From positions 62,001 to 126,000 of the forward strand of contig NZ_WTYV01000008.1 in the NCBI RefSeq assembly GCF_009827655.1: a stretch of 64,000 nucleotides of DNA. The letters run 5' to 3'. The position numbers and the translations under genes were made by a program. Of the stretch, positions 20,770 through 36,077 are shown piece by piece. The DNA comes from Alteraurantiacibacter buctensis (GTDB lineage: Bacteria; Pseudomonadota; Alphaproteobacteria; Sphingomonadales; Sphingomonadaceae). A model generated the notes under the pieces. The model did no database searches, was not told the DNA's origin, and was given only the letters and a program-made list of their open reading frames with translations. Within the stretch, counting starts at the first letter, position 1. Every line of letters starts with the position of its first letter.

Positions 20770-20774
20770 GAGAG

Positions 20775-21602: not shown

Positions 21603-21642
21603 GGCGTGAGCGACAATTTCGCCCCTCGCCAAATGCGAATCT

Positions 21643-21654: not shown

Positions 21655-21696
21655 CGGGTCTCGCAGTCGACCCGAAGCGACGCGGGAGAGGATCAT

Positions 21697-22602
21697 ATGG
21701 GCCAGGCACTCCTGGGGAGCGAATTCCGCGTGCGGGATACGCACGGCATCCTGATGCGGCCGGAGCACCGCATTCGCGACCGGTCTGACGGGCTGGGGTG
21801 GCAGTCGCTCTACGCCTCTGTCCAACACGAGGCCCCTTACGAAGCCAGCTTCAACGCGGTGGAGGATCACCTGATGATTCTGCACCTCAATGGCCCGGTG
21901 GCCGTGGAACGGCGGCTGGGGGCCAAGGTGGAACGGCGCGTGGTGCCGCCGGGAGGCCTGTTCATCCTGCCCGGCGGCCTGGATTTCGGGGTGCGGCTCG
22001 AAGGCGAGCTGGACACGCTGCACATCTACCTGCGCAACCAGATCGTGCGCGAGGTGGCCGGCGAACTGGGCATCGAGGATGACGACCTGGCCCTGCGCCC
22101 CAGCCTGGGCGAGCCGGACCCGCTGGCCGAAAGCCTCGCCCTGGCAGTGCGCGAGGCGATGTGCGATGCGACCCCCGGCACCTCTGTCTATGTCGACTAT
22201 CTCAGCCGCGTGCTGGCTGCCCGCCTGCTGCGCCGCTATTCATGGCGCGCCGTGCCGGAAATGGGCGAATGCGGCGGCCTGACCCGCATCCAGATGGCGC
22301 TGGTGGAGGATTTCATCGAGGAGCACCTGTGTTCCTCGCTGTCGCTGGATGACCTGGCGCGGGCCTGCGACCTCAGCCCCAGCTATTTCGCCCGCCGGTT
22401 CAAGGTGAGCATGGGCATGCCGCCGCACCAGTACCTGATCCGCAAGCGGGTGGACCGGGCCAAGCGGCTGCTGCGCGGCACCACGCCGATCGTGGAAGTG
22501 GCACTGGACTGTGGCTTCTCGCACCAGGAACACCTGACCAACGTGTTCCGCCGTGCCACCGGGCAGACGCCCGCTGCCTATCGCCGCGCGGTTCAATTCT
22601 GA
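21697..22602 (+). CDS. AraC-family transcriptional regulator
   Basis: A 301-residue regulator. Residues 1-190 form a ligand-binding, cupin-like domain (PPGGLFILPGGLDFGV near residue 88). The C-terminal 100 residues carry two helix-turn-helix motifs: SLDDLARACDLSPSYFARRFK near residues 219-239 and PIVEVALDCGFSHQEHLTNVFRR further on. The GxxPxxY-like linker reads GMPPHQYLIRKR. This is a standard AraC/XylS architecture. It sits between the hydroxyquinol genes and the hydroquinone dioxygenase genes, all in the same direction, so it most likely activates one or both operons in response to an aromatic inducer. Confidence 0.88.
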   Translation: MGQALLGSEFRVRDTHGILMRPEHRIRDRSDGLGWQSLYASVQHEAPYEASFNAVEDHLMILHLNGPVAVERRLGAKVERRVVPPGGLFILPGGLDFGVRLEGELDTLHIYLRNQIVREVAGELGIEDDDLALRPSLGEPDPLAESLALAVREAMCDATPGTSVYVDYLSRVLAARLLRRYSWRAVPEMGECGGLTRIQMALVEDFIEEHLCSSLSLDDLARACDLSPSYFARRFKVSMGMPPHQYLIRKRVDRAKRLLRGTTPIVEVALDCGFSHQEHLTNVFRRATGQTPAAYRRAVQF

Positions 22603-22633
22603 AGCGACGCGCAAAATTTGCAGGGCGATGTGC

Positions 22634-22675
22634 GGCATCGTGCAGGATTGGCCGCCGCGATTGGCCAATGATGCC
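22634..22675. promoter_or_regulatory. Repeats upstream of hydroquinone dioxygenase genes
   Basis: In the 148-bp gap between the AraC-type gene and hapC, the octamer GATTGGCC occurs twice as a direct repeat (22646-22653 and 22659-22666). The pair is flanked by an inverted GGCATC (22634-22639) and GATGCC (22670-22675). Direct repeats upstream of a target promoter are typical of AraC-family binding sites, although the 13-bp period is short for that family. The repeats are seen; the binding role is inferred. Confidence 0.35.
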
Positions 22676-22750
22676 TGCCAACAACAGCGCCGGACCAAGC
22701 CGGCGCACTGGCCGCGGCGGTGATCCTTGTCGGCCCTGGGAGGTGGAAAC

Positions 22751-23245
22751 ATGGGACAGTACCAGACCCGGTTCGGCAGCATGGCCGACTATGCCAAGGG
22801 CGGGGTGGCGATCATCAACGATGATCCCAAGAACTATGTCTTTTCCAACGTGTTCGAGGTGGCCGAAAAGTCCGCCCCTTGGGAACGCGTGGCCGTGGCC
22901 AAGAACTTCGAATACGTGATCGAGGCTGCGCGGGCGGAAGGAACCAGCCCCTGGTACGCCTGCGCCCACGACGAATTCGTGCTGGTGATGGACGGGCAGG
23001 TGGAAGTGCACTTGTTGAAGCCCGCCACGCCGCTGGTCGATGCGGGCCAACAGGGCGCAGTTGAACTCGCTGACATGCCCGATGGAGCCAAGATGGGCCG
23101 CCTGGTGCTCGAACGCGGCCACCAGGGCCTGCTGCCCGCCGGCAGCGCCTATCGCCTGCACGCCGACAACGTCTCGTGCGTGCTCATCCAGACCATCGCA
23201 GGCCCGGTGACCGTCCAGAAGTGGGCGGACATCTGCCAGTCCTGA
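22751..23245 (+). CDS. hapC: Hydroquinone 1,2-dioxygenase, small subunit
   Basis: Small subunit of the two-component Fe(II) hydroquinone dioxygenase, which cleaves hydroquinone to 4-hydroxymuconic semialdehyde. With the ATG at 22751, preceded by GGAGG at 7 bp, the product is 164 residues (about 18 kDa), matching the small subunit reported for the Pseudomonas fluorescens ACB and Sphingomonas TTNP3 enzymes. The fold is cupin-like: ACAHDEFVLVMDGQVEVHL near residues 73-90 is the typical first cupin strand pair. It is directly followed (26 bp) by the large subunit gene. The small subunit is not expected to hold the catalytic iron. PnpC of the 4-nitrophenol pathway is the closest alternative name. 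Confidence 0.88.
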   Translation: MGQYQTRFGSMADYAKGGVAIINDDPKNYVFSNVFEVAEKSAPWERVAVAKNFEYVIEAARAEGTSPWYACAHDEFVLVMDGQVEVHLLKPATPLVDAGQQGAVELADMPDGAKMGRLVLERGHQGLLPAGSAYRLHADNVSCVLIQTIAGPVTVQKWADICQS

Positions 23246-23271
23246 TTACCCAGCCGGAAGGAACCAAGACC

Positions 23272-24309
23272 ATGGCCATCCTGGAATCTGCCACCGCTGC
23301 TGCCGCTGCCAAACCGCTGTCGGACAATGTCGTCACCCATGCCGAAGTAGGGCCGATCGACAATGCCACCGGCTATCGCACTTTCACCGCCGGAGACTTC
23401 CACTTCCGCCGCGACGAGTATTTCGCGCGCATCACCTGGCCCGCCGGTGGCAGCCACGTGGCCCCGATCGACGCCTTCCTGCGCGCTCTGATGCGCGATG
23501 TGGCCTGGGGTTTCTTCTACGGCACGGTCAACTTCGATGACGTGGTGGGCACGGTGAACCACTATGGCGAGGTGACGCTGTTCGCCGGCACCTACAACGA
23601 TGCCTACCGCGATGCGGGCCGCGATTTCAGCCAGCGCTTTCCCAGCGAGGTGCTGGGCCCGCTGTTCAAGGAAATGATCACCGACTGGACCAATGCCGGT
23701 TACGATCCCTTTGCCGCACCGATGGAAACGGGCGTGCCGTGGGGGGCGAAAAACGGCAGCAACCTAGAGGCGGTCAACCGCGTGCGCGTGGCCGCCCGGC
23801 GCATGGTCGGCCTGCCGGGCGATACGCCGGTGCGGACCGACGACAACGGCTTTCCGGTCAACCGCATGTTCGCCGATGTCGACCAGCGCCAGCCGCTGGT
23901 GGAGGCCGAGCCCGGCTTCGAGGGCGAGGTAAGCGCCTATAACCTGTTCGGCTATCTCTCGCGCTCCGACGTGACGTGGAACCCCTCGGTCTGCTCGGTG
24001 GTGGGCGAAAGCCTATTCTGCCCGACCTCGGAGGAATTCAGCCTGCCGGTCGATCACGGCAACGACCGCTGCGAATGGTTCATCACCCTGTCGGACGAGA
24101 TCGTGTGGGACATTCGCGACAAGGTGACCGGCCGCCCGCGCGCCAAGCTGGTGGCGAAGGCGGGCGACGTCTCGTGCATGCCGGCGGACATCCGCCACAA
24201 GGGCTATGCCGACAAGCGCGCCATGCTGCTGGTGTGGGAAAACGCCTCCAACCGCATCCCCGAAATGATCGCGGCGGGCGAGGCCCCCAACGTCTCGGTC
24301 ACCTGGTAA
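23272..24309 (+). CDS. hapD: Hydroquinone 1,2-dioxygenase, large subunit
   Basis: Catalytic large subunit of hydroquinone dioxygenase. The ATG at 23272 has a GGAAGG site upstream and gives 345 residues (about 38 kDa), the size known for HapD-type subunits. The iron site described for PnpD (His256, Asn258, Glu262, His303) is reproduced with the same spacing: His262, Asn264 and Glu268 in DHGNDRCEW, and His309 in DIRHKGY. This makes the assignment strong. It acts with the small subunit as a heterotetramer in the cytoplasm and needs Fe(II) and O2. It is the second gene of a hapCDE unit, 7 bp before the aldehyde dehydrogenase gene. Confidence 0.93.
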   Translation: MAILESATAAAAAKPLSDNVVTHAEVGPIDNATGYRTFTAGDFHFRRDEYFARITWPAGGSHVAPIDAFLRALMRDVAWGFFYGTVNFDDVVGTVNHYGEVTLFAGTYNDAYRDAGRDFSQRFPSEVLGPLFKEMITDWTNAGYDPFAAPMETGVPWGAKNGSNLEAVNRVRVAARRMVGLPGDTPVRTDDNGFPVNRMFADVDQRQPLVEAEPGFEGEVSAYNLFGYLSRSDVTWNPSVCSVVGESLFCPTSEEFSLPVDHGNDRCEWFITLSDEIVWDIRDKVTGRPRAKLVAKAGDVSCMPADIRHKGYADKRAMLLVWENASNRIPEMIAAGEAPNVSVTW

Positions 24310-24316
24310 CATCGCC

Positions 24317-25810
24317 ATGCGCTATGCCCCGATCGATCCTGCCGCGCTGAAGACCCGCCTGTTCATCGGCGGGCAGTGGGTCGATGGCGTGCGCGGGCAG
24401 GAAATCGCCGTGGAGAATCCCTTCACCGGGGAGACCATCTGCCACATTGCCGAGGCGACGGCGCAGGACGTGGATCTGGCCGTGGCCGCCGCGCAGGCCG
24501 CGGCACCTGGATGGGCGCGGCTGGCGGCGCATGAGCGTGGCCGCCTGCTGCTGAAGCTGGCCGACGCAATCGAGGCCGATACCGAATACCTGGCGCGGCT
24601 GGAAGCGACCGACACCGGCCACCCGATCCGCGATTGCCTGAGCCTGGACGTGCCGCGCACCGTGCTGTGCTTCCGCTACTTCGGCGGCATGGCCGACAAG
24701 TTCGAAGGCAGCGTGATCCCGGTCGACGCGGGCTTCCTCAACTACGTCCAGCGCGAGCCGATCGGCGTAGTCGGCCAGATCGTGCCGTGGAACTTCCCGC
24801 TGATGTTTGTCAGCTGGAAGCTGGGTCCGGCGCTGGCGGCGGGCAATACAGTGGTGATGAAGCCCAGCGAGATCACCCCGCTATCCACCCTGCGCGTGGC
24901 CGAGCTGGCGCAGGCCGTGGGCATCCCCGATGGCGTGATCAACATTGTGCCGGGTTACGGCCACACCGCCGGGCAGGCGATTGCCGAACATCCCGGCATT
25001 GGCAAGGTCAGCTTTACCGGATCGACCAACGTAGGGCGCGAGATTGTCAAGGCTTCGGCCGGCAACCTCAAGAAGGTGCAGCTCGAACTGGGCGGCAAGG
25101 GGCCGAACATCGTGTTCGACGATGCCGTGCTGCCCGCAGCCATCGGCGGCACCGCCTTCGGCATCTTCCACAACCAGGGGCAGGCCTGCATCGCCGCCAG
25201 CCGCCTGATCGTGCACGAGAATGTGGCCGACGAGTTTCTCGACAAATTCACCGCGCTGGCCCGCTCGATCCGGCTGGGCGATCCGCTGGACAGCGAGACG
25301 GAAATGGGCCCGCTGACCAGCCGGGTCCATCACGAGCGGGTGATGGCCTACGTCCAGGTGGCAAGGGACGATGGCGGCACAATCCTCTCCGGCGGCCAGC
25401 GCCCGGCCGATCCGGCACTGGCGCAAGGCTATTTCGTGGAACCCACCATCGTGCGCGCCGACCGCAAGGCCCGCGTCCAGAACGAGGAAGTGTTCGGCCC
25501 CTTCATGTCGGTAACCACCTTTGCCGACGAGGAGGAGGCCATCGCCATCGCCAACGGCACTGCCTATGGCCTCGGTGCCGGCCTGTGGACCCAGAACCTT
25601 TCCCGCGCCCACCGCGTGGCAAATGCGATCCATGCCGGGATGGTGTGGGTCAATTCCTACAAGCGTGTGCATCCCGCCTCGCCCTTCGGCGGCTTCGGCC
25701 AGTCCGGCTATGGCCGCGAGATGGGGTTCGAGGCGATGCGCGAATACACCCAGCCCAAGTCTGTATGGATCAATGTCGATGCCCAGTTGCCGCCGTTCTA
25801 CCGGCGCTAG
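24317..25810 (+). CDS. hapE: 4-hydroxymuconic semialdehyde dehydrogenase
   Basis: Aldehyde dehydrogenase superfamily enzyme of 497 residues, normal length. The catalytic Cys291 lies in GQACIAASR and the general-base Glu in LELGGKGPNI about 33 residues earlier. The NAD-binding Asn is in PWNFPLMF near residue 156, and the segment FTGSTNVGREI is the usual cofactor loop. Directly downstream of the hydroquinone dioxygenase subunits, it should oxidise 4-hydroxymuconic semialdehyde to maleylacetate with NAD+, as HapE does. The ALDH family alone would not fix the substrate, so the specific name rests on context. The Rieske protein gene converges 31 bp beyond its stop. Confidence 0.88.
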   Translation: MRYAPIDPAALKTRLFIGGQWVDGVRGQEIAVENPFTGETICHIAEATAQDVDLAVAAAQAAAPGWARLAAHERGRLLLKLADAIEADTEYLARLEATDTGHPIRDCLSLDVPRTVLCFRYFGGMADKFEGSVIPVDAGFLNYVQREPIGVVGQIVPWNFPLMFVSWKLGPALAAGNTVVMKPSEITPLSTLRVAELAQAVGIPDGVINIVPGYGHTAGQAIAEHPGIGKVSFTGSTNVGREIVKASAGNLKKVQLELGGKGPNIVFDDAVLPAAIGGTAFGIFHNQGQACIAASRLIVHENVADEFLDKFTALARSIRLGDPLDSETEMGPLTSRVHHERVMAYVQVARDDGGTILSGGQRPADPALAQGYFVEPTIVRADRKARVQNEEVFGPFMSVTTFADEEEAIAIANGTAYGLGAGLWTQNLSRAHRVANAIHAGMVWVNSYKRVHPASPFGGFGQSGYGREMGFEAMREYTQPKSVWINVDAQLPPFYRR

Positions 25811-25841
25811 GTGCCGTTCTGCTGCAAGCGGTGCAGGGCGG

Positions 25842-26210
25842 TCAGGCGATCGCGATGCAGCCCTGCGCGTCCACAATGACCGGCACCAGGGGCAGCGTCG
25901 TGCCCTCGGCGGCGCCGCTGCGGCAGACCCCGCTCTCGCGGTCGAACAGGGCCAGGTGCTGGCGGCACATGATGTGCGCGCCGTCCCTGGTCAGGAACTG
26001 GCCGGGCCGCACGTTCAGCGGAAGCGAGTAGTGCGGGCAGCGGTTGACGAAGGCGCGCACCCCGCCATCCGGCAGGGCGATCACGAACAGGCGGAAGGCG
26101 GCAAGCCCCTGGCCGAAAACGAATTCGCGCCCGCCATCGCCCACCTCTGCCAACAGGCCCAGCGTCGTGCCGGGGGCAGGGGCGTTGGGCAGGTTCTGCC
26201 AGTCATGCAT
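25842..26210 (-). CDS. Rieske [2Fe-2S] ferredoxin-like protein
   Basis: A 122-residue soluble protein with one Rieske cluster motif: CPHYSLPLN (C-x-H) near residue 59 and MCRQHLALFD (C-x-x-H) near residue 81. These provide the two Cys and two His ligands of a [2Fe-2S] centre. There is no oxygenase or reductase partner beside it, no signal peptide and no membrane helix. It converges on hapE from the opposite strand. It could donate electrons to an oxygenase encoded elsewhere or help keep the nearby Fe(II) dioxygenase reduced, but neither role is shown. The cluster ligands make the family call strong; the function is open. Confidence 0.82.
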   Translation of the reverse strand: MHDWQNLPNAPAPGTTLGLLAEVGDGGREFVFGQGLAAFRLFVIALPDGGVRAFVNRCPHYSLPLNVRPGQFLTRDGAHIMCRQHLALFDRESGVCRSGAAEGTTLPLVPVIVDAQGCIAIA

Positions 26211-26305: not shown

Positions 26306-26851
26306 ATGAACTTCGCCACCGCAGTCACCGCAGAACGGGTCCAGCCCGTCGCCATCACCGCGCGCGAGAGGGATGACCTGATCCGCAGCCTGCGCCGTTT
26401 TACCCGCGATGCCGACGTGGCCGAGGACTGTTTCCAGTCGGCCTTTGTCCGGCTGGAGGAATATCGCCGCACGCAGGAGGTACAGTCCGATGTCCGCTTC
26501 CTGGCCCGGGCCGCGCGCAACATCGCCATCGACGAGGCCCGCAAGCGCCGCGTGCGGTCCGACATGGCCCCCGACGTGCGCAGCATGATCGAGGACACAC
26601 ATGGCACGCAACTGCCGGCGGATGAGGTTTTGGTGGTGCGTGAACGTCTCAACCGGGCGCGCGAAGTGCTGGATGCTCTGCCCGAGCGCACGCGGACGAT
26701 CTTCCTGATGCACCGGTTCACCCGGACCAAGTATCGCGAGATCGCCGAGCAATTTGGTGTGAGCGTAAGCGCGGTCGAAAAGCACATTGCAAAGGCCGCG
26801 CAAGCCCTGGCGAGAAGTGTTGAACACGAGAACGAAGGAACCGGGCGATGA
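26306..26851 (+). CDS. ECF RNA polymerase sigma factor (FecI-like)
   Basis: A 181-residue extracytoplasmic-function sigma factor. Region 2 spans about residues 25-90 with FTRDADVAEDCFQSAFVRL and the -10 recognition helix around FLARAARNIAIDEARKR. Region 4 spans about 120-175 with LPERTRTIFLMHRF and the helix-turn-helix YREIAEQFGVSVSAVEKHI. The RFxRxKYREIAE and AVEKHI pattern is that of FecI-type sigma factors, which are normally paired with a FecR anti-sigma factor and a TonB-dependent receptor. Here the gene is followed by only a FecR N-terminal fragment, and there is no TonB receptor in the window. It probably drives the following plus-strand run to 32750. Confidence 0.88.
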   Translation: MNFATAVTAERVQPVAITARERDDLIRSLRRFTRDADVAEDCFQSAFVRLEEYRRTQEVQSDVRFLARAARNIAIDEARKRRVRSDMAPDVRSMIEDTHGTQLPADEVLVVRERLNRAREVLDALPERTRTIFLMHRFTRTKYREIAEQFGVSVSAVEKHIAKAAQALARSVEHENEGTGR

Positions 26852-27101
26852 CCGCGACGCACCCTCACGCGAGGCGGCGGTCTGGTTCGCGCGCCTGCGT
26901 TCCGGACAAGGCGACAGCCCGGCCTTTGGTGCCTGGCTGGACCGGGACTGCGCCAACGCACGCGCCTTTGCCCGCGTGCTCGACGGATGGGACATCGTCG
27001 GCGGGCTGGCACCGCTCTACCCGCAGTTTGCGCCGGCTGATCCTGCTGCTGTGTCTTCCCCTGGCAGGCCTCGGCGCGAACCCGGCCTGGGCGCAGAGTG
27101 A
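26817..27101 (+). pseudogene. FecR-like anti-sigma N-terminal fragment
   Basis: A 94-codon frame (possible GTG at 26817 or TTG at 26820) overlapping the end of the sigma factor gene, exactly where fecR normally starts. Residues 19-64 read like the N-terminal DUF4880 domain of FecR: REAAVWFARLRSG, FGAWLDRDCANARAFARV and DGWDIVGGLA. The frame then loses all FecR character and stops at 27101; the transmembrane and periplasmic parts are missing. In the next frame, right after the homology ends, a hydrophobic run begins (27028 onward) that could have been its membrane segment. It is either a decayed FecR or the front half of a frame-shifted chimera with the exported protein that follows. Confidence 0.55.
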
Positions 27102-27882
27102 CATCGTCGGCGAATGGGAGCACCGCCAGCACGAGGACCGCAACGAGCGCGGGGCGGGCCCCGACATCGGCGAATACGAAGGGCTGCCGATCAACGGGGC
27201 CGCCCGCTACCATGCCGAGCGGTGGAGCCCGTCGTTGTGGACCGTGCCCGAGCACCAGTGCATCCCGCATCCGGCCGATTACGGCCCCAACTTTTCCAGC
27301 GTGCGCATCTGGAAGGACGTGAACCCGCTGACGCAAGAAGTGGTGGCCTATCACACCAACATTGCCTGGAATAACCCGGTCCGCACGATCTGGATGGACG
27401 GCCGTCCGCATCCGCCGGCCAATGCCCTGCACACCTGGGAAGGATTCTCGACCGGCCGCTGGGACGGCGACCGGCTGGTGGTGACCACCACCCATATGAA
27501 GCCTGCCTACCTGCGGCGTAACGGCTTGCCCCGCAGCGAAACGGCGGTCTTGACCGAATACTTCATCCGTACCGGCGATTTCCTTACGTGGGTCAGCGTG
27601 ATCGTGGATCCGGTCTACCTGACCGAGCCGATCATCCGCAGTCGCGATTTCCATCTCAACCCCGGCTACCAGGTGGAGCTCTACCCCTGCTCGATCGATG
27701 TCGAGGTGCCACGCCCGGCTGGCGAGGTGCCGAGCTATGTCGATGGCAACCCCGACATCAGGCAATATGCCGAGGAATACGCGCTGCCGTGGGAAGCAGT
27801 GCAGGGCGGGGCGGCCACCATGTACCCCGAATTTATCGCCACAATGGGCCAGGTGGCCCCGGCGCAGGAGGGCGGCGAATGA
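26848..27882 (+). CDS. Exported protein of unknown function
   Basis: The frame opens at ATG 26848, overlapping the sigma stop as ATGA and preceded by AAGGA, and runs 344 residues. The first 60 residues are arginine- and proline-rich and antagonistic to the FecR-like frame, so they may not be real protein. A TTG at 27028 would start directly at the signal peptide (RRLILLLCLPLAGL, cleavage near AWA-Q), giving 284 residues. The secreted domain contains WMDGRPHPP, GRWDGDRLVVTTTHM and SVIVDPVYLTEP. These are hallmarks of a broad family of unnamed exported proteins often found beside DUF6152 genes. It is related to the protein at 28916. It overlaps the next gene as ATGA. Confidence 0.65.
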   Translation: MTATHPHARRRSGSRACVPDKATARPLVPGWTGTAPTHAPLPACSTDGTSSAGWHRSTRSLRRLILLLCLPLAGLGANPAWAQSDIVGEWEHRQHEDRNERGAGPDIGEYEGLPINGAARYHAERWSPSLWTVPEHQCIPHPADYGPNFSSVRIWKDVNPLTQEVVAYHTNIAWNNPVRTIWMDGRPHPPANALHTWEGFSTGRWDGDRLVVTTTHMKPAYLRRNGLPRSETAVLTEYFIRTGDFLTWVSVIVDPVYLTEPIIRSRDFHLNPGYQVELYPCSIDVEVPRPAGEVPSYVDGNPDIRQYAEEYALPWEAVQGGAATMYPEFIATMGQVAPAQEGGE

Positions 27883-28919
27883 TCGGCTCGCGATGGTTCT
27901 TTGGCAGCGTCCTGGCCCTGGCCATGCCACTGGCTGCCCAGGCGCAGGTGATCGGGGTGCCGTACGACGACGGCCAGCGCCTGCCGCCGCAAGCGCCGGT
28001 ATTGCCGCCCCCGCCGCTGCCGGTTCTGGAGGGTTCGCCCTACGTCATCTATCCTGTCCGTGGCGGGACCTTCATGATTTCCGGCCCCTCGGCCAATGTG
28101 CTGGTTCAGGTGGGGCTGGACGGCGTGCTGGTGGTGGACACCGGCCCGGCCGGGGATGCCGCCGGCCTGCTGCGCGAAATCCGCCGCCTCAGCCCCCGGC
28201 CGATCCGCTATATTCTGAACACGAACGCCGATGCCGATCACGTGGGCGGCAATGTCGGCCTGTCGGGCATTGGCCAGGATATCGGCAGCGGTAACGAGCG
28301 GCCCGATGGAGTGCAGGGCTATGGCGCCACCCCTACGCTGGCGCACGAGCAGGTGATGTTCCGCCTGCTGGAGGAAGGGGCCAGCGAGGGGCTGCCCACG
28401 CTGACCTATTTCGTGGCCCAGAAGGACATCTTCTTCAATGGCGAGCCGGTCTCGCTGATTTATGCACCCGGCCATACCGGTGGGGATTCGCTGGTGATGC
28501 TGCGGCGGAGCGACGTGATCGCTGCGGGCGACATCTACACGCCCGATCGCTACCCCGAGCTGGCGCTGGACAAGGGCGGCTCGATCGCTGCCTATCTGGC
28601 ATCGCTCAACCACCTGATTGCGCTGACAATTCCGGAATTCAACCAGCAGGGTGGCACCTTCGTGGTGCCCGGCCACGGCCGCCTGAGCGACGAGGGCGAC
28701 ATCCAGGACTATCGTGACATGGTGACCTTCATCCATGACCGGGTGAAGGCGATGGTGGACCGCGGGATGAGTCTGGAGCAGGTGCAGGCGGCACGCCCCT
28801 CGCAGGACTATGACGTGCGCTACAGCCGTGAGGCGGGGGACCGGTTCGTGGCCCAGATCTACACCAGCCTGACCCAGCCGCCACTGGCCGATGAAGCCAC
28901 GCTGGAGGTGCCCGAATGA
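27879..28919 (+). CDS. Exported MBL-fold protein with altered metal motif
   Basis: A 346-residue metallo-beta-lactamase-fold protein with a signal peptide (cleavage near AQAQ, residue 22). Start chosen at the ATG overlapping the previous stop. The family scaffold is complete: NVLVQVGLDGVLVVDTGPAG near residue 70, PGHTGGDS with His199, GDIYTPDRYP with Asp218 and VPGHGRLSD with His266. The usual HxHxDH metal motif reads N116-A-D118-A-D120-H121, so the two histidines of the Zn1 site are replaced by Asn and Asp. Such SADxDH or NADADH variants occur in a known sub-branch of exported MBL proteins, so this may be a different metal arrangement and not inactivation. It overlaps both neighbours by 4 bp. 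Confidence 0.78.
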   Translation: MIGSRWFFGSVLALAMPLAAQAQVIGVPYDDGQRLPPQAPVLPPPPLPVLEGSPYVIYPVRGGTFMISGPSANVLVQVGLDGVLVVDTGPAGDAAGLLREIRRLSPRPIRYILNTNADADHVGGNVGLSGIGQDIGSGNERPDGVQGYGATPTLAHEQVMFRLLEEGASEGLPTLTYFVAQKDIFFNGEPVSLIYAPGHTGGDSLVMLRRSDVIAAGDIYTPDRYPELALDKGGSIAAYLASLNHLIALTIPEFNQQGGTFVVPGHGRLSDEGDIQDYRDMVTFIHDRVKAMVDRGMSLEQVQAARPSQDYDVRYSREAGDRFVAQIYTSLTQPPLADEATLEVPE

Positions 28920-29752
28920 GCCGCAAGGGTCTTTTCGCCACCACGCTGGCCCTTCTGGCGCTGGCAGCGGCCAGCCCTGCTGCCGCGCAGCGCGGGGCAC
29001 CACCGCCGCCGGCTTCGGCCCGCGAAGGCGCGCCGGTCGACCTGACCGGGCAGTGGGTTGCTGTGGTCACCGAGGACTGGCGCTGGCGCATGGTCACCCC
29101 GCCGGTGGGCGATACCGCCAGCGTGCCGCTGACTGCCGCCGGCCTCGCTGCGGCGCAGGCGTGGGACCTGGCAGCGGACAATGCGGCGGGCGAACAGTGC
29201 CGTGCATTCGGCGCGGGCGGCATCATGCGCATGCCGGGCCGCCTGCGGATCGGCTGGCAGGACGACAACACGCTGAAGGTGGAGACCGACCGGGGCCAGC
29301 AGACGCGCCTGCTCCGCTTCATTGCCACCGGCCGGCAGAACCTGCTGCCGCAACTGGATGACCCGCTGGACGCCCCTGAAGCGCCGAGCTGGCAAGGGCA
29401 TACCAGGGCCCAGTGGTTCCACCAGGCGCAGTCGCGCGGGCTGGGCTTTGGCGGCCCGCCGCCCTCGCCGGGGGGATCGCTGCGCGCCTTCACGCAGAAC
29501 CTGCGGCCCGGATACCTGCGGCTGAACGGTGTGCCCTACAGCGGTAACGCCACGGTGACCGAACACTTCAACCTGTTCGAGGCCGGCGGCACGACGTGGC
29601 TGGTGGTGACCACGATCGTCGAGGACCCGGAAAACCTGATGCAGCCCTTCGTGACCAGCAGCAACTTCCGCAAGGAGGCCGATGCCAGCCGTTGGGCGCC
29701 AACGCCCTGCTACACGGCGCCTCCCGCCGCAATTCATCGCGAAGGGGAATGA
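28916..29752 (+). CDS. Exported protein, paralogue of 26848 product
   Basis: A 278-residue exported protein with a signal peptide (MSRKGLFATTLALLALAAA, cleavage near AAAQ at residue 25). It opens with DLTGQWVAVVTEDWRWRM. The C-terminal half shares a pattern with the product at 26848: GVPYSGNATVTEHFN, then VVTTIVEDPENLMQPFVTSS. This is the form TE-x-F followed by DP-x-x-L-x-x-PF or P-I. I recognise the family only as unnamed periplasmic proteins that occur with DUF6152 and MBL genes. No catalytic residues can be named. It is translationally coupled to the MBL gene through ATGA and followed by a 69-bp AT-rich gap. Confidence 0.65.
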   Translation: MSRKGLFATTLALLALAAASPAAAQRGAPPPPASAREGAPVDLTGQWVAVVTEDWRWRMVTPPVGDTASVPLTAAGLAAAQAWDLAADNAAGEQCRAFGAGGIMRMPGRLRIGWQDDNTLKVETDRGQQTRLLRFIATGRQNLLPQLDDPLDAPEAPSWQGHTRAQWFHQAQSRGLGFGGPPPSPGGSLRAFTQNLRPGYLRLNGVPYSGNATVTEHFNLFEAGGTTWLVVTTIVEDPENLMQPFVTSSNFRKEADASRWAPTPCYTAPPAAIHREGE

Positions 29753-29821
29753 CGTTCAGGGCGAATTCATTCGCATAGCGACAAAATAGTATGCATATTC
29801 TAGTTTTGGTGAGAGGCTGAG

Positions 29822-30226
29822 ATGAAACCGATTCTTAAAACGGCACTGGCCGTTGCCGCGGCTGGCAGCGTGGTGGCAGGCGGGGCGCTGACCAGCGTCA
29901 CCGCGCATCACTCGTTCCCGGCGACCTATCACGTCGATCGCACGCAGACGATCCGCGGGCGCGTGGTCGCCTTCCTGTTCCGCAATCCGCACTCGTTCGT
30001 GCAGGTTATGGCGCCCGATGCCGATGGCACCATGCAGCGCTGGGCCGTGGAGTGGAGCGCGGGAGCGGCGCTTGCCTCGCAGAACGTCAATGCCCGCACG
30101 CTCAGCGTGGGCGACGTGGTGACCATCGTGGGCAATCCGGGCCGCAACGTGGCCGATCACCGCCTGCGGATGAACTCGATTCGCCGTCCGGCCGATGGGT
30201 GGAACTGGTCGGGCGCCGTCGAATAG
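29822..30226 (+). CDS. DUF6152 family exported protein
   Basis: A 134-residue secreted protein. A signal peptide (residues 1-27) is followed at once by the family hallmark AHHSFPATYHVD, then IRGRVVAFLFRNPHSFVQVMAPD and a WAVEW strand. It matches DUF6152, small beta-barrel-like periplasmic proteins of unknown function. The His pair at the mature N-terminus and the later NPHSF could bind a metal, but that is inference. The 69 bp before it hold an AT-rich stretch with TATGCATA at 29790-29797, possibly an internal promoter. It is followed after 34 bp by the first of two membrane protein genes. Confidence 0.75.
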   Translation: MKPILKTALAVAAAGSVVAGGALTSVTAHHSFPATYHVDRTQTIRGRVVAFLFRNPHSFVQVMAPDADGTMQRWAVEWSAGAALASQNVNARTLSVGDVVTIVGNPGRNVADHRLRMNSIRRPADGWNWSGAVE

Positions 30227-30260
30227 CGCCTGCGCGCGGGGGAACAGGGGGTAGGCTGCC

Positions 30261-30755
30261 ATGCTGGAAGCGCTCGCCAACAGCGATTACGCGATGTGGA
30301 TGGTGGTCTCCCCATGGGCCTACCCCGCCTTGCTGACCACGCACGGCCTGGGCATGGCCTTCGTGGTCGGCCTGACGCTGATGATCGCCCTGCGCGTGCT
30401 GGGCTTTCCGGGCAACGTGCCGGTAACCCCCTACCGCAGCACGATCCCGCTGGGCATCGCTGCATTCGCGATCAACGCGCTTTCGGGCGTGCTGCTGTTT
30501 GCCGCCGACGCGGTGACGCTGTGGCCCAACCCCAGTTTCCAGATCAAGCTCGTGTCGATTGCCATCGGCCTTGTGGTCCTGTGGCTGCTGGGCCGGGGTC
30601 CGCTGCGTAGGGCCGTGGCGGCAGAGGCCGAAGGACGCGCGTTTGTCGCTACTGGTGGCGAAAAACTGCTGGCCGTGCTGGCGATCCTGTTCTGGTGCGG
30701 GGCGGTGATCGTTTCGGGCCGGCTGATCGCCTACCTTGCGCCCGCGTTGTTCTGA
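30261..30755 (+). CDS. DUF6644-like membrane protein, copy 1
   Basis: A 164-residue integral membrane protein with four predicted helices (roughly residues 20-45, 63-83, 93-112 and 133-158). The first helix carries a His in LLTTHGLGMAFVVGL and a later loop reads NPSFQIKLVSI. Its neighbour at 30769 has the same plan: H in the first helix, then N-x-F-x-x-K. I assign it to the DUF6644 group of small membrane proteins, function unknown. The two tandem copies probably pair in the membrane. The conserved intramembrane His could be a ligand for heme or a metal, which is speculation. Confidence 0.62.
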   Translation: MLEALANSDYAMWMVVSPWAYPALLTTHGLGMAFVVGLTLMIALRVLGFPGNVPVTPYRSTIPLGIAAFAINALSGVLLFAADAVTLWPNPSFQIKLVSIAIGLVVLWLLGRGPLRRAVAAEAEGRAFVATGGEKLLAVLAILFWCGAVIVSGRLIAYLAPALF

Positions 30756-30768
30756 AAGGGGAACTGGC

Positions 30769-31248
30769 ATGCTTGACGCACTCGGCAATGTCCTCGGCAG
30801 TTCCCCGCTCAACACCTTCATGGTTTCGGTTGGTCCGGCTTTCCCCGCCTGCGAGACGCTGCACTTCATCGGCCTGTCGCTGCTGTTCGGCTCGCTCCTG
30901 CTGGTGGACCTGCGCGCGATGGGCTTCTTCCGCGCCCTGCCGCTGATCGCCCTGCACCGGTTGGTGCCGCTGGCCATTGCGGGCTTTGCCATCAATCTCG
31001 TCACCGGCGTACTGTTCGTCGCCTATGACCCGCCGACCTACTTCGAGAACAACGCCTTCTTGTGGAAGATGGTGCTGGTGGGCCTGGCGGGTGTCAACGC
31101 GCTGGCCTTCGAGTTTGCGGTGTTCCGCCCGTTGGTGGCAGGCGACGCGGCAATCGAGCGCGGCATGCTGATCAAGGTGCTGGCGGCGCTGTCCCTGCTG
31201 CTGTGGAGCGGGGTGCTGATCGCCGGCCGGCTGATCCCCTTCGTATGA
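30769..31248 (+). CDS. DUF6644-like membrane protein, copy 2
   Basis: A 159-residue four-helix membrane protein. The ATG at 30769 follows an AAAGGGGA ribosome-binding site. The first helix region reads ACETLHFIGLSLLFGSLLLVD, ending in DLRAMG, which is the DUF6644 signature. The second conserved region is YFENNAFLWKMVLVG. It is 13 bp downstream of copy 1 and overlaps the LVIVD gene as ATGA. The close spacing and paralogy suggest a heterodimeric membrane component for the exported proteins of this cluster. Function unknown. Confidence 0.65.
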   Translation: MLDALGNVLGSSPLNTFMVSVGPAFPACETLHFIGLSLLFGSLLLVDLRAMGFFRALPLIALHRLVPLAIAGFAINLVTGVLFVAYDPPTYFENNAFLWKMVLVGLAGVNALAFEFAVFRPLVAGDAAIERGMLIKVLAALSLLLWSGVLIAGRLIPFV

Positions 31249-32750
31249 TCCGCGCGGCACTTCCGCTGGCCCTTGCGGCCGTTCTCGCCGGTCCGGCTAT
31301 GGCCGAGGCGGACCCCGCGTTGACCGAAAGTGCCGAGAACTTCGAACTGGCCGCGCACGATCCGCTACAGGCGCGGCAGACCTACCAGATCGAACCACAC
31401 CGGCAGGGGGATCGCTGGTATCTCTACCTTGGTCACCTGCGCGGATCCGAGTTGAACCCGCAGACCGGGGAGATTGAGGAAAACGGCGTGTCGGTGGTGG
31501 ACGTGACCGATCCGAAAAACCCGGTTTACCTGCGCCACATTCCGCCCACGCCCGCGCCGTGGAGCAACGCGTCGGCCGAGGCGCGGTCGGGTGGGCAGCA
31601 TGTCCAGGCCTGCGCGGGTGATGACCTTCCGCATGGCGTGCCGGGGCGCCACTACCTGCTGCGCAACCAGGGCTGGGTGGGGCACGAGGTGCTCGACGTG
31701 ACCGATCCGCTTAACCCCGCCCTGGTGGGCCCGGTCAGCCGCACGGGCGTGAGCCGCCATGGGGGACAAAGCACGCACAAGAACTTCTGGGATTGCGAAA
31801 CCGGCGAGGCCTACCTCGTCTCCACGCTGGACGGCTGGAGCGGGCAGGTGCTGCAGGTGGTTGACCTGGCGGACCCGGCGCACCCGCGACACATCCGCGA
31901 CTTTGCGCTGGACGGGATGCAGCCCGGCAGCGCTTTCGCGCGCGAGGTCGAGGAGGGCTATTCGCTGCACGAGGCGACCGTCTATCGGGACAGGGTGTAC
32001 CTTGCCTATGGCACCGACCGTACGGGGACCGTGCAGATCCTTGACCGGCAGCGGCTGCTGCACGGCGATCCGGCCAGCGCCGATCCGCTGGGAACGGACA
32101 GCGCGGCCCTGGCATATCCGCAGCTCTCGCGTCTCGACATGCCCGATTTCTGGGGGGCCCATTCCGCCAAGCCGATCCTTGGCGTGCCCATCGCGGATTA
32201 TGCCCGCAACGCCGTGGGCTCCACCCGCGACTTCCTGTTCGTGACCAGCGAGGGGATCGACTTCCTGTGCCGCACGCCGCGCCACCTGTCATTCTTCCTC
32301 GACATCACCGACGTGGCCCATCCCTGGCCGGTGTCGAACTACCAGGTGCCTGCCTTGCCCCAGGAGGAGGGTGACCCGAACTTCTGCGAGCGCGGTGTGT
32401 TCGGCCCGCATGGTCCGCATGCCTCGCACAGTCCGCTGTATGAAGGGCGCATCCTGTTCCTCGCCTATTTCACCGGCGGAGTGCGGGCGATCGACATGCG
32501 CGATCCGTTCCAGCCGGTGGAGGCGGGGCACTTCCTGCATGCGATCACGCCCAACAGCCGGGTGATCTATCCGCCTAACCCGCCGGCCGACGCCGTGGCC
32601 TGGCCTGTAGCCAACACGGTGGAGGTGGACGAGCGGGGTGGCTACCTGTTCATGGCGGACCGGCCGCACAACGGGCTGTATATCCTGCGCATCACCGGCG
32701 ACCTGGCAGCCATCGTGAACGAAGGTCAGGCCGCGGCTTGGGTGCCGTAG
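31245..32750 (+). CDS. Exported LVIVD-repeat protein
   Basis: A 501-residue secreted protein with a signal peptide (cleavage near AMAE, residue 20). Start chosen at the ATG overlapping the previous stop. At least four LVIVD-type repeats are visible: VSVVDVTDPKNPVYLRHI, HEVLDVTDPLNPALVG, LQVVDLADPAHPRHIRDF and FFLDITDVAHPWPVSNY. Each ends a beta-propeller-like blade, so the fold is probably a beta-propeller. Several His-rich loops (GPHGPHASHSP) may bind metal. It ends the plus-strand run that starts with the sigma factor. Its last 25 bp overlap the end of the convergent tetR gene. Function unknown; it may bind ligands at the cell surface or in the periplasm. Confidence 0.78.
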   Translation: MIRAALPLALAAVLAGPAMAEADPALTESAENFELAAHDPLQARQTYQIEPHRQGDRWYLYLGHLRGSELNPQTGEIEENGVSVVDVTDPKNPVYLRHIPPTPAPWSNASAEARSGGQHVQACAGDDLPHGVPGRHYLLRNQGWVGHEVLDVTDPLNPALVGPVSRTGVSRHGGQSTHKNFWDCETGEAYLVSTLDGWSGQVLQVVDLADPAHPRHIRDFALDGMQPGSAFAREVEEGYSLHEATVYRDRVYLAYGTDRTGTVQILDRQRLLHGDPASADPLGTDSAALAYPQLSRLDMPDFWGAHSAKPILGVPIADYARNAVGSTRDFLFVTSEGIDFLCRTPRHLSFFLDITDVAHPWPVSNYQVPALPQEEGDPNFCERGVFGPHGPHASHSPLYEGRILFLAYFTGGVRAIDMRDPFQPVEAGHFLHAITPNSRVIYPPNPPADAVAWPVANTVEVDERGGYLFMADRPHNGLYILRITGDLAAIVNEGQAAAWVP

Positions 32751-33373
32751 GCGCGGCAGAAGGCATCCACAGCGGCATCCACGTCAGCCTCAATGGTCTG
32801 TGCGCCGGGCGAACCCGAATCGCTCATCAGGTGGCGCTGGTAGCTGCCGGACTGGAACATGCCGATCAGGTGCTGCGCGGCGCGGAAGCAATCGGCATCG
32901 GCCCGCACCAGACCGCGCGCCTGGGCTTCGGTCAGGAAACTGGCCATCCGCTGCCAGCCGTGGGCCAGCCCCTGTTCGTGAAACCGGATCCCCAGCCCCG
33001 GTATGGCTTTCGCTTCGGCCGTGACCACCCGCATCAGGGCGGTAATAGGCGGCGAGGTGAGGGCAGTCAGCAGGTTGCGGCCAAAGCGCTGCAGGCATTT
33101 GTCGAGAGGTCCGTCGAACACCAGTTGGGCAGCGATGTGGCCGGCATATTCCTCGATCAGGTCGCTCGCCACGGCCAGGAACAGCGCTTCCTTGCTGGGG
33201 AAATAGGTCCACAGCGTGGTCTTGGAGCCGCCGATCCGCGCCGCCACAGCCGACATCGAGGTACGGGCATAGCCCTGCTCAAGGAAGAGTGCGCGGGCCA
33301 CCGCCAGCATCGCGCGGCGGCGTTCCTCGCTGACTCCCGGCAGCACGGCGGCATCGGTGGAACACTCTCCCAT
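32726..33373 (-). CDS. TetR/AcrR-family repressor
   Basis: A TetR-family regulator of about 215 residues. The N-terminal helix-turn-helix spans ARALFLEQGYARTSMSAVAA and RIGGSKTTLWTYFPSKEALF, the standard TetR DNA-binding unit. The rest is the ligand-binding and dimerisation domain. I chose the ATG at 33373. The frame is open to 33463, but ATGs further upstream fall inside the palindromic operator, and a start at 33379 or 33397 cannot be excluded. It diverges from the efflux operon, with two operator-like sites in the gap, so it most likely represses the pump and itself until an effector binds. Confidence 0.85.
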   Translation of the reverse strand: MGECSTDAAVLPGVSEERRRAMLAVARALFLEQGYARTSMSAVAARIGGSKTTLWTYFPSKEALFLAVASDLIEEYAGHIAAQLVFDGPLDKCLQRFGRNLLTALTSPPITALMRVVTAEAKAIPGLGIRFHEQGLAHGWQRMASFLTEAQARGLVRADADCFRAAQHLIGMFQSGSYQRHLMSDSGSPGAQTIEADVDAAVDAFCRAYGTQAAA

Positions 33374-33377
33374 GAGC

Positions 33378-33397
33378 ATGATACTAGGCAGTATCAT
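33378..33397. promoter_or_regulatory. Perfect palindromic operator for the TetR gene
   Basis: ATGATACT-AGGC-AGTATCAT is a perfect inverted repeat with 8-bp arms and a 4-bp spacer. It lies at the start of the tetR gene and just upstream of a TTGACA hexamer (33403-33408) pointing toward the efflux operon. This is the expected size and symmetry of a TetR-family operator. Confidence 0.7.
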
Positions 33398-33440
33398 TTC
33401 TGTTGACAAGCCGCTTGGCCGGGAGCATCTGGCCTGCCGT

Positions 33441-33460
33441 ATGATACTGCACGGTACGGT
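33441..33460. promoter_or_regulatory. Second, imperfect operator half near efflux start
   Basis: The half-site ATGATACT recurs at 33441-33448, followed by GCAC and a degenerate second arm GGTACGGT. It sits 10-29 bp before the ATG of the outer-membrane factor gene. The TATGAT at 33440-33445 could serve as a -10 element, so binding here could block transcription directly. Confidence 0.5.
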
Positions 33461-33469
33461 CACCCCGGC

Positions 33470-34912
33470 ATGAGGATCAGGTCACAGAACTGGCTAGCGG
33501 CAGGCCTTGCCGCAATGGCGCTGTCAGCCTGCGCCAGCGTGCCCGATCTGGGCGCGGCACCGCAATTGCGCGCGCCCGAATCGCTGGCGGCGGACCAGGC
33601 GCTGGCCGCAGCGCCCGCAGCCTTTCCGGATGACCGCTGGTGGACCCGCTGGCAGGATCCGCAGCTCGATGCCCTGGTGGCCGAGGCGCTGGCCGGGTCA
33701 CCCGATGTGGCGCTGGCCACCGCGCGACTGGCCCAGGCGCAGGCGATGGTCGGCCAGGCCCGGGCAGCCGGAGAGCCGCAGGTGGATCTGGAAGCCAGCG
33801 TCGGCGGTGTGCGCCCCAGCCTGAACCAGGGATTCCCGCGCGGTTTCCTGCCGGAAAACGTGCGCAGCCAGGGCTATCTGGGCCTGAACTTTGCCTTCGA
33901 TCCCGACCTGTGGGGCCGCCAGCGTGCCCAGCTTGCTGCGGCCACGTCAGGCGCCCGCGCGGCGGAGGTTGACGCAGCCCAGGCGCGGTTGCTCCTCGCC
34001 TCCTCGGTCGTGCGCACCTATGCCGACCTGATGGGCGCCTTCGCCCGGCGCGACCGCGCGCTTGAGACGATCGCCAATGCCGAGGCTGATCTGGGCGTCG
34101 CCCGGGAACGCAATGCGCGCGGGCTCGACAGTGCCATGCCGCTGCGCGCGGCGGAAGAAGCGCTCGATCGTGCCGAGGGCTCGCTGGCCCTGGCCGACGA
34201 GGAAATTGCCCTTGCCCGCAACATGCTTGCGGCACTGGTGGGCCAGGGGCCGGATCGCGGCCTTGCCATCGCCCGCCCGCAGATGGCCGATCCCTTCGCG
34301 CTGGCCCTGCCGCAAAACCTGCCGGCCGACCTGGTGGGCCGCCGTCCCGATCTGGTCGCCGCGCGCCTCAGGGCAGAAGCCGCCGCCGCCCGCATCGGCG
34401 TGGCGCGGGCCGATTTCTACCCCAGCGTGAACCTGGCTGCAGTGATCGGCTTGCAAGCCGTGCCGCTGGACCTGCTGTTCCGCCAATCCTCGCTGACCAC
34501 CCAGTTCGGCCCGGCGCTGCGCCTGCCGATCTTCGAAGGCGGGGCCATCGCCGCACGTTACGAAGGAGCGCGAGCCCAGTATGACGAGGCGGTAGCGGCC
34601 TATGACGCGGCCCTGCTCACCGCCGTGCGGCAGGTGGCCGATGCCGCCGCGCAGAAGCGGGCGATTGCCACTCAGCTTGCAGAGGCAACCGAAGCCTACA
34701 ACGCCGCCCGCGCGCAGCTTGCCCTGGCCCGCCAGCGTACGGATGCGGGGCTGGCCGACAGCCGTGCCGTGCTGAGCGAGCAGCGCGACGTGATCGCGGC
34801 AGAGCGTTCCGTAGCCGCGCTGGTGGCGCGTGACAGGCAAGCCGATGTGGCCCTGGCCGTGGCGCTGGGCGGCGGATTTGACGAGATGACGACCGATGAA
34901 GGATCGCAGTGA
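33470..34912 (+). CDS. Efflux outer-membrane lipoprotein (NodT/OprM family)
   Basis: Outer-membrane factor of a tripartite pump, 480 residues. A lipoprotein signal with lipobox LSAC puts the acylated Cys near residue 21. Two repeated OEP domains follow: WWTRWQDPQLDALVAEAL near residue 57 opens the first, and ADLVGRRPDLVAARLRAEAAAARIGVA near residue 285 the second, the hallmark of NodT-family channels. It forms a trimeric TolC-like duct with the adaptor and inner-membrane transporter encoded next. Its TGA overlaps the next ATG (TGATG). Regulation by the divergent TetR is likely. Confidence 0.9.
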   Translation: MRIRSQNWLAAGLAAMALSACASVPDLGAAPQLRAPESLAADQALAAAPAAFPDDRWWTRWQDPQLDALVAEALAGSPDVALATARLAQAQAMVGQARAAGEPQVDLEASVGGVRPSLNQGFPRGFLPENVRSQGYLGLNFAFDPDLWGRQRAQLAAATSGARAAEVDAAQARLLLASSVVRTYADLMGAFARRDRALETIANAEADLGVARERNARGLDSAMPLRAAEEALDRAEGSLALADEEIALARNMLAALVGQGPDRGLAIARPQMADPFALALPQNLPADLVGRRPDLVAARLRAEAAAARIGVARADFYPSVNLAAVIGLQAVPLDLLFRQSSLTTQFGPALRLPIFEGGAIAARYEGARAQYDEAVAAYDAALLTAVRQVADAAAQKRAIATQLAEATEAYNAARAQLALARQRTDAGLADSRAVLSEQRDVIAAERSVAALVARDRQADVALAVALGGGFDEMTTDEGSQ

Positions 34913-36066
34913 TGGATAGCGTGCAGCCCCCCGCACCCGCCGGGGCCGAAGTCGAGGTCGAAGGCGCCGCACCCAAGGTTGACCGGCGCGGCAAGTTGTT
35001 CCGCATCCTGGGCCTGGTCGTGCTTGCAGCCGCAATTGGCTGGGGCGCCTATTACTGGTTCTTCCAGCGCGGGTTCGTGGGCACGGACAATGCCTATGTC
35101 GCCGCTGAAAGCGCGGTCGTCACGCCGCGCCTGGCCGCAGCCGTGCGCGAAGTGCGCGTGGCCGATACCCAGGTGGTGAAGGCGGGTGACGTGCTGGTGG
35201 TGCTCGACGATGCCGATGCCCGCGTGGAACTGGCCGCTGCCGAAGCCGCGCTGCGCCAGGCCCAGCAGCGCTTCTCGCAGGCGCGGGCCAACGATCGCCA
35301 GCTTGGTGCCCGAGTGGCCGGGGCCAGCGCCGATATCGCCGCAGCGCAAGCCCGGCTGGTTTCAGCCGAGGCCGACCTGGCGCGCGCCAACGATGCCGTG
35401 TCGCGCCGCAGCGGACTAGCCGAGAGCGGTGCCGTGGCGGGAGAAGAGCTCAGCCAGGCCCGCGCCACGCAGGCTCAGGCCCGCGCCGCCGTGGATGCCG
35501 CGCGCGCCGCGCTCGCATCTGCCCAGGCCAACCGCGCCGCCGCCAGTGGCTCGGCCGATGCCAATGCCGTGATCACCCGCGTGGGCGACATGGCGGGCGA
35601 TCCTGACGTTCGCGCAGCGCAGGCCCGCGTGGACGCCGCACGCCTGATGCTGGAGAGGACCGTGATCCGCGCCCCCGTCGCCGGCACCGTCGCCCAGCGC
35701 ACCGTCCAGCCCGGCCAGCAGGTGGCCCCGGGCACGCCGTTGCTGCATGTGGTGCCGCTGGCCCAGGCTTTCGTGGAAGCGAACTTCCGCGAAACCCAGC
35801 TTGGCCCCGTGCGCGTGGGCCAGCCGGTGGAGCTGACCAGCGACTTTCACGGCAGTGATGTGGTCTATCATGGCCGTGTCAGCGGCATCGGGGCGGCTTC
35901 GGGTGCGGCATCCTCGCTGATTCCGGCACAGAACGCGTCGGGCAACTGGGTCAAGGTGGTGCAGCGCATCCCGGTGCGCATAGCGCTTGATGCCCGCGAG
36001 CTTGCGGCCCATCCGCTGCCGGTTGGCGCGTCGATGGAAGCCGAAATCGACACGCGCGGCAACTGA
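34912..36066 (+). CDS. EmrA/HlyD-type membrane fusion protein
   Basis: Periplasmic adaptor of 384 residues with a single membrane anchor at about residues 30-48 (ILGLVVLAAAIGWGAYYWF). A lipoyl/barrel-sandwich half follows (GTDNAYVAAESAVVTPRLAA), then a long alanine-rich coiled-coil hairpin (about residues 100-215) and the second lipoyl half (TVIRAPVAGTVAQRTVQPGQQV). The end is the beta-barrel region. GTDNAYV is typical of EmrA-type adaptors that serve MFS pumps. A GTG three bases upstream is an alternative start. It bridges the EmrB-like transporter and the NodT-type channel. Confidence 0.9.
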   Translation: MDSVQPPAPAGAEVEVEGAAPKVDRRGKLFRILGLVVLAAAIGWGAYYWFFQRGFVGTDNAYVAAESAVVTPRLAAAVREVRVADTQVVKAGDVLVVLDDADARVELAAAEAALRQAQQRFSQARANDRQLGARVAGASADIAAAQARLVSAEADLARANDAVSRRSGLAESGAVAGEELSQARATQAQARAAVDAARAALASAQANRAAASGSADANAVITRVGDMAGDPDVRAAQARVDAARLMLERTVIRAPVAGTVAQRTVQPGQQVAPGTPLLHVVPLAQAFVEANFRETQLGPVRVGQPVELTSDFHGSDVVYHGRVSGIGAASGAASSLIPAQNASGNWVKVVQRIPVRIALDARELAAHPLPVGASMEAEIDTRGN

Positions 36067-36077
36067 GGCACCGCACC

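Follow-up and report, generated by a model that had tools for sequence, protein, structure and literature searches.

Gene content of the cluster

The sequence considered here (the window) is a stretch of 64,000 nucleotides from Alteraurantiacibacter buctensis (contig NZ_WTYV01000008.1, positions 62,001 to 126,000 of the forward strand), in which a run of plus-strand genes follows a sigma factor of the extracytoplasmic function (ECF) type (Table 1). Four components of this run, namely a family of exported proteins that we call EXP, the exported protein DUF6152 and the two membrane proteins DUF6644a and DUF6644b, make up a conserved envelope module. We suggest, at a probability of about 0.5, that the cluster represents a copy of this module that has been expanded locally and is led by a sigma factor, and that the module would combine a protein capturing a metal, probably copper, with a two-subunit membrane partner, together with EXP.

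Table 1. Genes and reading frames of the sigma-led cluster (positions in the window)
Feature	Position	Strand	Basis
ECF sigma factor, FecI-like	26306..26851	+	Pfam Sigma70_r4_2 2.1e-15, Sigma70_r2 5e-6; coding frame 2
Open reading frame with FecR N-terminal domain DUF4880	26820..27101	+	PF16220 5.3e-8; coding-like at about 26840-27020, frame 0
EXP1, exported, calycin-like model, no Pfam family	27028..27882	+	Frame scan, model, Foldseek
Exported protein of metallo-beta-lactamase (MBL) fold, altered metal motif	27879..28919	+	Lactamase_B 1.9e-14
EXP2, exported, EXP family	28916..29752	+	25% to EXP1, E 1.8e-8
DUF6152, exported, OB-barrel model	29822..30226	+	PF19649 2.6e-18
DUF6644a, membrane protein	30261..30755	+	PF20349 18 bits, below cut-off; tandem-pair alignment
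DUF6644b, membrane protein	30769..31248	+	PF20349 4.5e-9
LVIVD-type exported protein, probably beta-propeller	31245..32750	+	Weak choice_anch_B and weak 5hrm/5ioj matches

The spacing between the genes ranges from -4 to +69 bp, and the four-base overlaps and short gaps along the run suggest one operon. An earlier reading of this DNA from its letters (the sequence-only reading) had listed eight plus-strand genes that overlap or lie at most 69 bp apart, and the open reading frames (ORFs) confirm the position of the named genes on that strand. The relatedness of the two exported proteins was also borne out, as was the changed metal motif of the MBL protein, in which NTNADADHVGG replaces HxHxDH while the later GHT, GD and GHG motifs are retained. 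However, the list overlooked the DUF4880 frame and placed the start of its second gene wrongly. A hexamer scan found coding frame 2 until about 26840, frame 0 across 26840-27020 and frame 1 from about 27020; therefore the second gene as read earlier (from 26848) opens with some 60 codons in the wrong frame, and the probable start of EXP1 is the TTG at 27028 instead. Signal peptides and their cut sites were read by eye throughout.

Conservation of the core families

Among 299 genomes of the phylum (Pseudomonadota), DUF6152 was found in 31 and DUF6644 in 22, and every one of these 22 also had DUF6152 (E <= 0.001; hypergeometric P 1.7e-26, with relatedness ignored). A lack of co-occurrence in other genomes, which the sequence-only reading had set as grounds for refutation, thus does not apply to this core. 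The two genes were also close to each other, at less than 5 kb in 20 of the 22 genomes and less than 500 bp in 14; in one genome they were 31 kb apart and in another they were on different contigs. In genomes of the order, 43 of the 47 DUF6644 sites were examined, and the stretch around them held a tandem pair in 34, DUF6152 in 37 and EXP in 26. All nine single DUF6644 genes of this set directly adjoin a DUF6152, so a single DUF6644 with DUF6152 is possibly the minimal, two-gene form of the module. In these loci (L096, L100, L104-L106 and L108-L111) the adjoining DUF6152 is of the HHGW type, and several of them lie at a housekeeping site close to prolyl-tRNA synthetase.

A second set consisted of the best 80 of 156 confirmed loci from named genomes. 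All 80 had the tandem pair, 60 had DUF6152, 67 had EXP and 58 had both, several of the contigs being short. The two sets overlap (for example, L079 = L137, L085 = L181 and L086 = L192) and are therefore not independent. The 80 loci come mainly from Alpha-, Beta- and Gammaproteobacteria and span Sphingomonadales (including Sphingobium sp. SYK-6), Bradyrhizobium, Polynucleobacter, other Burkholderiales, Caulobacterales, gammaproteobacterial metagenome-assembled genomes (MAGs) and one MAG labelled Marinimicrobia. The contiguous orders included pair-EXP-DUF6152 in 14 loci and EXP-DUF6152-pair followed by a gene with a CxxCH motif in nine. A natural fusion further argues for the association of the three families: on the minus strand of L099 (10111-11979), one ORF of 622 aa joins DUF6152 (109-200), EXP (219-462) and DUF6644a (488-621), and is followed by a second DUF6644 gene, DUF6644b.

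The sequence-only reading had taken the whole cluster for one novel envelope system. Its core of four families is well supported as a conserved module and extends well beyond this genome, and neither DUF6152 nor DUF6644 is named by any paper in the literature searched, which was mostly outside subscription papers; the composition of eight genes, however, is not conserved. An exported family that Pfam does not list and two uncharacterised DUFs, all found across Pseudomonadota, are thereby joined in one testable module.

Properties of the core proteins

The window DUF6152 scores 66.3 bits against a Pfam cut-off of 27. At the point where its signal peptide should end, DUF6152 carries two successive histidines, and this His-His was present in 50 of 50 ORFs of a first set and 64 of 64 of a second (114 in total in sets that overlap, with the cut judged by eye). 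In an alignment of 63 DUF6152 proteins, which left out two of 64 ORFs, the only invariant residues were H29, H30, N55, P56, H57 and E77. Among 324 other exported proteins, crudely called, an AxA followed by His-His did not occur and an AxA followed by a single His occurred in 15. The AlphaFold2 model is a five-stranded barrel with a mean predicted local distance difference test score (pLDDT) of 83.9 and low values at residues 1-30; its Foldseek matches are oligonucleotide/oligosaccharide-binding (OB) folds, the best at 3.4e-4. DUF6152 matches neither the CopC nor the DUF1775 family: a scan of the 63 proteins listed 15 families at E <= 0.1 without CopC, and only DUF6152 matched all 63. The DUF6152 profile gave one chance match among PDB chains, a dehydroquinate dehydratase (E 0.072), and thus no sequence kinship to CusF or SilF; on plasmids it had no match. 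CopC and YcnI (PMC8424229, in part) and the anglerases offer an analogy for the His-His at the new N-terminus, which, with the His and Glu further along the protein, is best taken as a metal site. We consider it probable that DUF6152 binds a metal; copper would be the likeliest one, and copper binding appears about as likely as not.

EXP belongs to no Pfam family, and its 66 members gave only matches confined to single members, at E 0.019 or worse. In an alignment of 64 of the 128 listed EXP ORFs with both window proteins, C221 was invariant and C78 nearly so. The EXP model is calycin-like with a moderate mean pLDDT of 69.8, and its Foldseek matches include CRBP and FABP, among others (best 1.8e-4); the EXP profile found nothing beyond chance among PDB sequences. 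EXP1 itself was rejected as a search anchor: of 398 genomes of the phylum, none but its own gave a match at E <= 1e-20, and no match was found on plasmids. Its paralogue at 69% is on contig C17. The source genome contains 14 EXP matches (contigs C10, C16-C18 and C21) and 12 DUF6152 matches (C10, C16 and C18-C21), and 10 of the 14 EXP matches are less than 700 bp from a DUF6152 match. Most of these are neighbouring pairs, some of which adjoin TonB receptors. Elsewhere, an EXP protein in L167 (7998-13496) has an N-terminal stretch like a carboxypeptidase-regulatory domain, as read by eye, and two genes resembling carotenoid oxygenases directly follow the DUF6644 pair there (two RPE65 matches among the scanned neighbours).

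The two membrane proteins differ in how well they fit the Pfam profile. DUF6644b is above the cut-off of 27 bits, with 36.8; DUF6644a is below it and matches its own family profile, which may include it, at 4e-33. Each has exactly one invariant His (81 of 81 in both; H28 in DUF6644a), alongside an invariant Lys and Arg. The DUF2214 profile matches 18 of 22 DUF6644b proteins (best 1.1e-5) and UPF0093 three of 22 (best 0.041), and CopD matches none of the 22 at E <= 1. In profile comparisons by hhalign, DUF6644 reached E 0.093 with a probability below 1% against two CopD and E 0.5 against HemJ; the CopD profile picked one DUF6644 gene (G025) at 3e-4, below its cut-off. As the hhalign comparisons were not significant, DUF6644 was not taken for a plain member of CopD or HemJ; its kinship is faint. 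DUF6644b was found on plasmids in two records. One locus, L199 (5249-9640), holds four DUF6644 genes, the second pair being divergent (E 4e-24). From the linkage of the genes, we infer that the DUF6644 pair is the partner of DUF6152.

Sigma factor and local additions

The DUF4880 frame changes the regulatory reading of the cluster. The genome has no other DUF4880 match. This frame differs from that of the ATG overlapping the end of the sigma gene, and its frame 0 hexamer score is positive only over 26840-27020. DUF4880 is its sole domain match, and the membrane and periplasmic sensor part of FecR is absent from the frame, which ends at 27101. In Escherichia coli, FecR fragments 1-85 or 1-59 turn FecI on without a signal (PMC8144685, in part). 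By analogy with this free N-terminal fragment, which activates FecI constitutively, the sigma factor and the stand-alone FecR N-domain would drive the window operon without an outer-membrane signal. Most likely, then, the window module would stand under a sigma factor whose regulator has lost its sensor, and we infer that the sigma factor co-regulates the cluster. The stand-alone domain offers a natural test of whether this fragment alone drives a FecI-type sigma factor.

A bolder idea sees in EXP-DUF6152-DUF6644a/b a metal-dependent envelope machine of a class not recognised before, in which an OB-fold protein would form a copper site from its newly cut N-terminus, a calycin would present a ligand and the two membrane subunits would be connected to cytochrome c. 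In the window, EXP1 would in addition be the sensor portion of a FecR-like regulator divided in two: DUF4880 immediately precedes the hydrophobic start of EXP1 in a different frame, and joining them, by a frameshift or across an old indel, would give an anti-sigma protein with EXP as its periplasmic sensor. We regard this as unlikely. None of the 66 EXP proteins has a DUF4880 match at E <= 0.1, and so no relative supports the split sensor.

The sigma factor, the MBL protein and the LVIVD-type protein look like local additions to the core. A relative of the sigma factor was found in only one of the 80 loci, and in the order set L074 held one more sigma, located 7.4 kb away from DUF6644. MBL relatives at 24-27% occurred in three of the 80 loci. 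The LVIVD-type protein, whose label comes from the earlier reader and from its plasmid relatives, has no Pfam match (choice_anch_B at 2.1e-5 is below the cut-off). Its full-length match in 396 genomes of the order is itself only, with weak partial matches in 14 others; no relative was found in the named-genome contigs, and relatives of about 25% on plasmids stand in sugar or hydroxy-acid settings. On these grounds it was rejected as a part of the core. It weakly matches the haloalkylphosphorus hydrolases 5hrm and 5ioj (E 3e-5 and 6e-5), and is possibly a propeller like the organophosphate hydrolases.

It could also be argued that the window cluster is partly accidental, with a working or decaying core next to MBL and LVIVD genes that are unrelated to it and to a sigma-regulator pair that is broken, and with no function shared among them. 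This explanation concerns the extra genes and is compatible with our explanation of the core. The cluster as a whole has no orthologue in the 396 order and 398 phylum genomes, in the named-genome contigs (by the LVIVD search) or on plasmids (by the EXP1 search); EXP1 and EXP2 occur as a plain pair elsewhere in the same genome (L041), and the DUF4880 frame is out of register as described above. However, the close packing of the genes suggests one operon, and a second sigma-led copy exists in a gammaproteobacterial MAG (L176), where an ECF sigma factor is directly ahead of DUF6152-DUF6152-EXP-EXP-DUF6152-pair-cytochrome c. A partly accidental assembly seems possible, though somewhat unlikely.

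Genomic setting

The cluster lies beside aromatic catabolism, as the sequence-only reading had it, with ring-cleavage dioxygenase genes upstream. The aromatic ring-cleavage genes, hydroquinone 1,2-dioxygenase among them, occupy 18429-26210. The genes upstream of the cluster comprise a catechol-type intradiol dioxygenase, the large subunit of hydroquinone 1,2-dioxygenase (PF18191 2.6e-54), an aldehyde dehydrogenase, a major facilitator superfamily (MFS) transporter and a Rieske protein; a maleylacetate reductase, an AraC regulator and the small subunit of the hydroquinone dioxygenase were named from the sequence by eye. At L084 and at L085/L181 the large subunit is likewise close to the module, but hydroquinone dioxygenase was rejected as a fixed partner, being found in three of 122 loci, two of which (L085 and L181) are the same place. 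Right after the cluster (32726-37655), a TetR regulator is divergent from an apparent tripartite efflux set of outer-membrane factor, HlyD-type adaptor and MFS pump, the pump names again being read by eye.

Around the related modules, HupE/UreJ_2-like proteins occurred in 18 of 134 loci, and the long form starts with His after the signal peptide in eight (by eye, one being cut by a contig end). The sigma factor of the window was said to lack its usual TonB receptor, and this agrees with our search, in which the TonB receptors of related loci gave no match in the window. A SCO1/SenC gene was near the fusion in L099; a general link to SCO1/SenC was rejected, this being the only such locus. The same neighbourhood holds a YHYH protein and an exported protein that starts with HLLH after its signal peptide.

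Proposed function and alternative explanations

In the explanation that we prefer, mature DUF6152 would resemble CopC, YcnI and the anglerases in binding a transition metal, most likely Cu(II), through its new N-terminus. EXP, as a calycin-like barrel, would hold a small hydrophobic ligand. DUF6644a and DUF6644b would form a heterodimer in the inner membrane and take up or insert the metal, or use it for electron transfer. The output of the module would be periplasmic redox chemistry involving c-type cytochromes and pyrroloquinoline quinone (PQQ) dehydrogenases.

Several observations weigh against this explanation. With regard to the module itself, only 15 of the 22 DUF6644 genomes were above the Pfam cut-off; six of the 43 order loci had neither DUF6152 nor EXP, including a pair in the source genome (L038); and in 41 of the 80 loci the pair had no contiguous partner on the same strand by a 450-bp rule. 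With regard to the metal, its binding by DUF6152 is a proposal from sequence and model, with the cut site placed by eye, and the His-His sits in a part of the model with low confidence (blocks 21-30, mean pLDDT 56); the 50 Foldseek rows listed for this model did not include CusF, and the kinship of DUF6644 to CopD and HemJ was not significant. Copper genes were not generally enriched, SCO1 being outside the top 25 families of the 139 scanned neighbours (139 of 230 listed non-sphingomonad neighbours, with the 145 listed sphingomonad ones left out). Finally, the window contains no convincing CxxCH gene between 15 and 45 kb, where the sole CxxCH ORF is a doubtful minus-strand frame at 40188-40994.

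The main rival to metal transport is a haem shared by both DUF6644 subunits. Each subunit, in which a Lys and an Arg are also invariant, would give its one invariant His to a shared haem b, and the pair would shuttle electrons, with the quinone pool at one end and a neighbouring cytochrome c or PQQ dehydrogenase at the other; DUF6152 and EXP would be periplasmic accessories. The genes near the pair are consistent with such a role, and their enrichment in CxxCH genes also counts in favour of the explanation that we prefer. CxxCH genes made up 35 of 214 genes within 1 kb of the pair, five of 113 at 1-2 kb and 14 of 810 at 2-10 kb (Fisher test of the first against the last, 6.7e-15), and one was within 4 kb in 41 of the 80 loci. 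When eight CxxCH proteins were scanned, five matched a cytochrome c family and three had no match; one of the five, fused to a PQQ dehydrogenase domain, adjoins the pair in L192. The faint likeness of three of the 22 DUF6644b proteins to HemJ/UPF0093 points the same way. However, the direct comparison with HemJ gave only E 0.5, the invariant His-His of DUF6152 is left unexplained, and no cytochrome c stands beside the window copy. We consider the haem explanation quite unlikely.

Uptake of an aromatic or other hydrophobic compound that EXP binds and passes to the DUF6644 pair as a transporter, with DUF6152 as a structural part, would agree with the calycin-like model, the TonB receptors in 10 of the 43 DUF6644 loci, the TctC receptors in 13 of the 139 scanned neighbours and the aromatic catabolism upstream, but it is improbable, given the moderate confidence of the EXP model and no explanation for the His, Lys and Arg of the membrane pair or the His-His of DUF6152.

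Comparison with known systems

The metal-capture module that we propose resembles several described systems in part. The window has a FecI-like sigma factor followed by a FecR N-terminal domain, as in FecI-FecR-FecA (PMC8144685, in part), whereas its frame is without the membrane and periplasmic part of FecR and the window has no TonB receptor. CopC-CopD and YcnI-YcnJ likewise place an exported protein with an N-terminal His and a multi-helix membrane partner in one operon (PMC8424229, in part). In contrast to these systems, DUF6152 has an OB-barrel model, no significant relationship links DUF6644 to CopD, and EXP has no counterpart in them.

The anglerases, in which Ang-1 or Ang-2 domains are fused to HupE/UreJ-2, also have a membrane partner and, at the N-terminus that follows the signal peptide, an invariant His, and the HupE/UreJ_2 genes near the module in some loci start with His like the copper-binding anglerases (PMC12537917, in part). 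Anglerase domains, however, are immunoglobulin-like beta-sandwiches, and neither DUF6152 nor DUF6644 is mentioned in the anglerase paper. CusF and SilF are small exported OB-fold barrels, as DUF6152 is modelled to be, and are called the only OB-fold proteins with metal binding as their sole function (PMC10656224, in part). They bind Cu(I) or Ag(I) by a Met/His/Trp site in the barrel; DUF6152, which does not match them in sequence, instead conserves an N-terminal His-His, an NPH motif and a Glu. If it does bind copper through its N-terminus, DUF6152 would differ from CusF and SilF as a metal protein with an OB fold.

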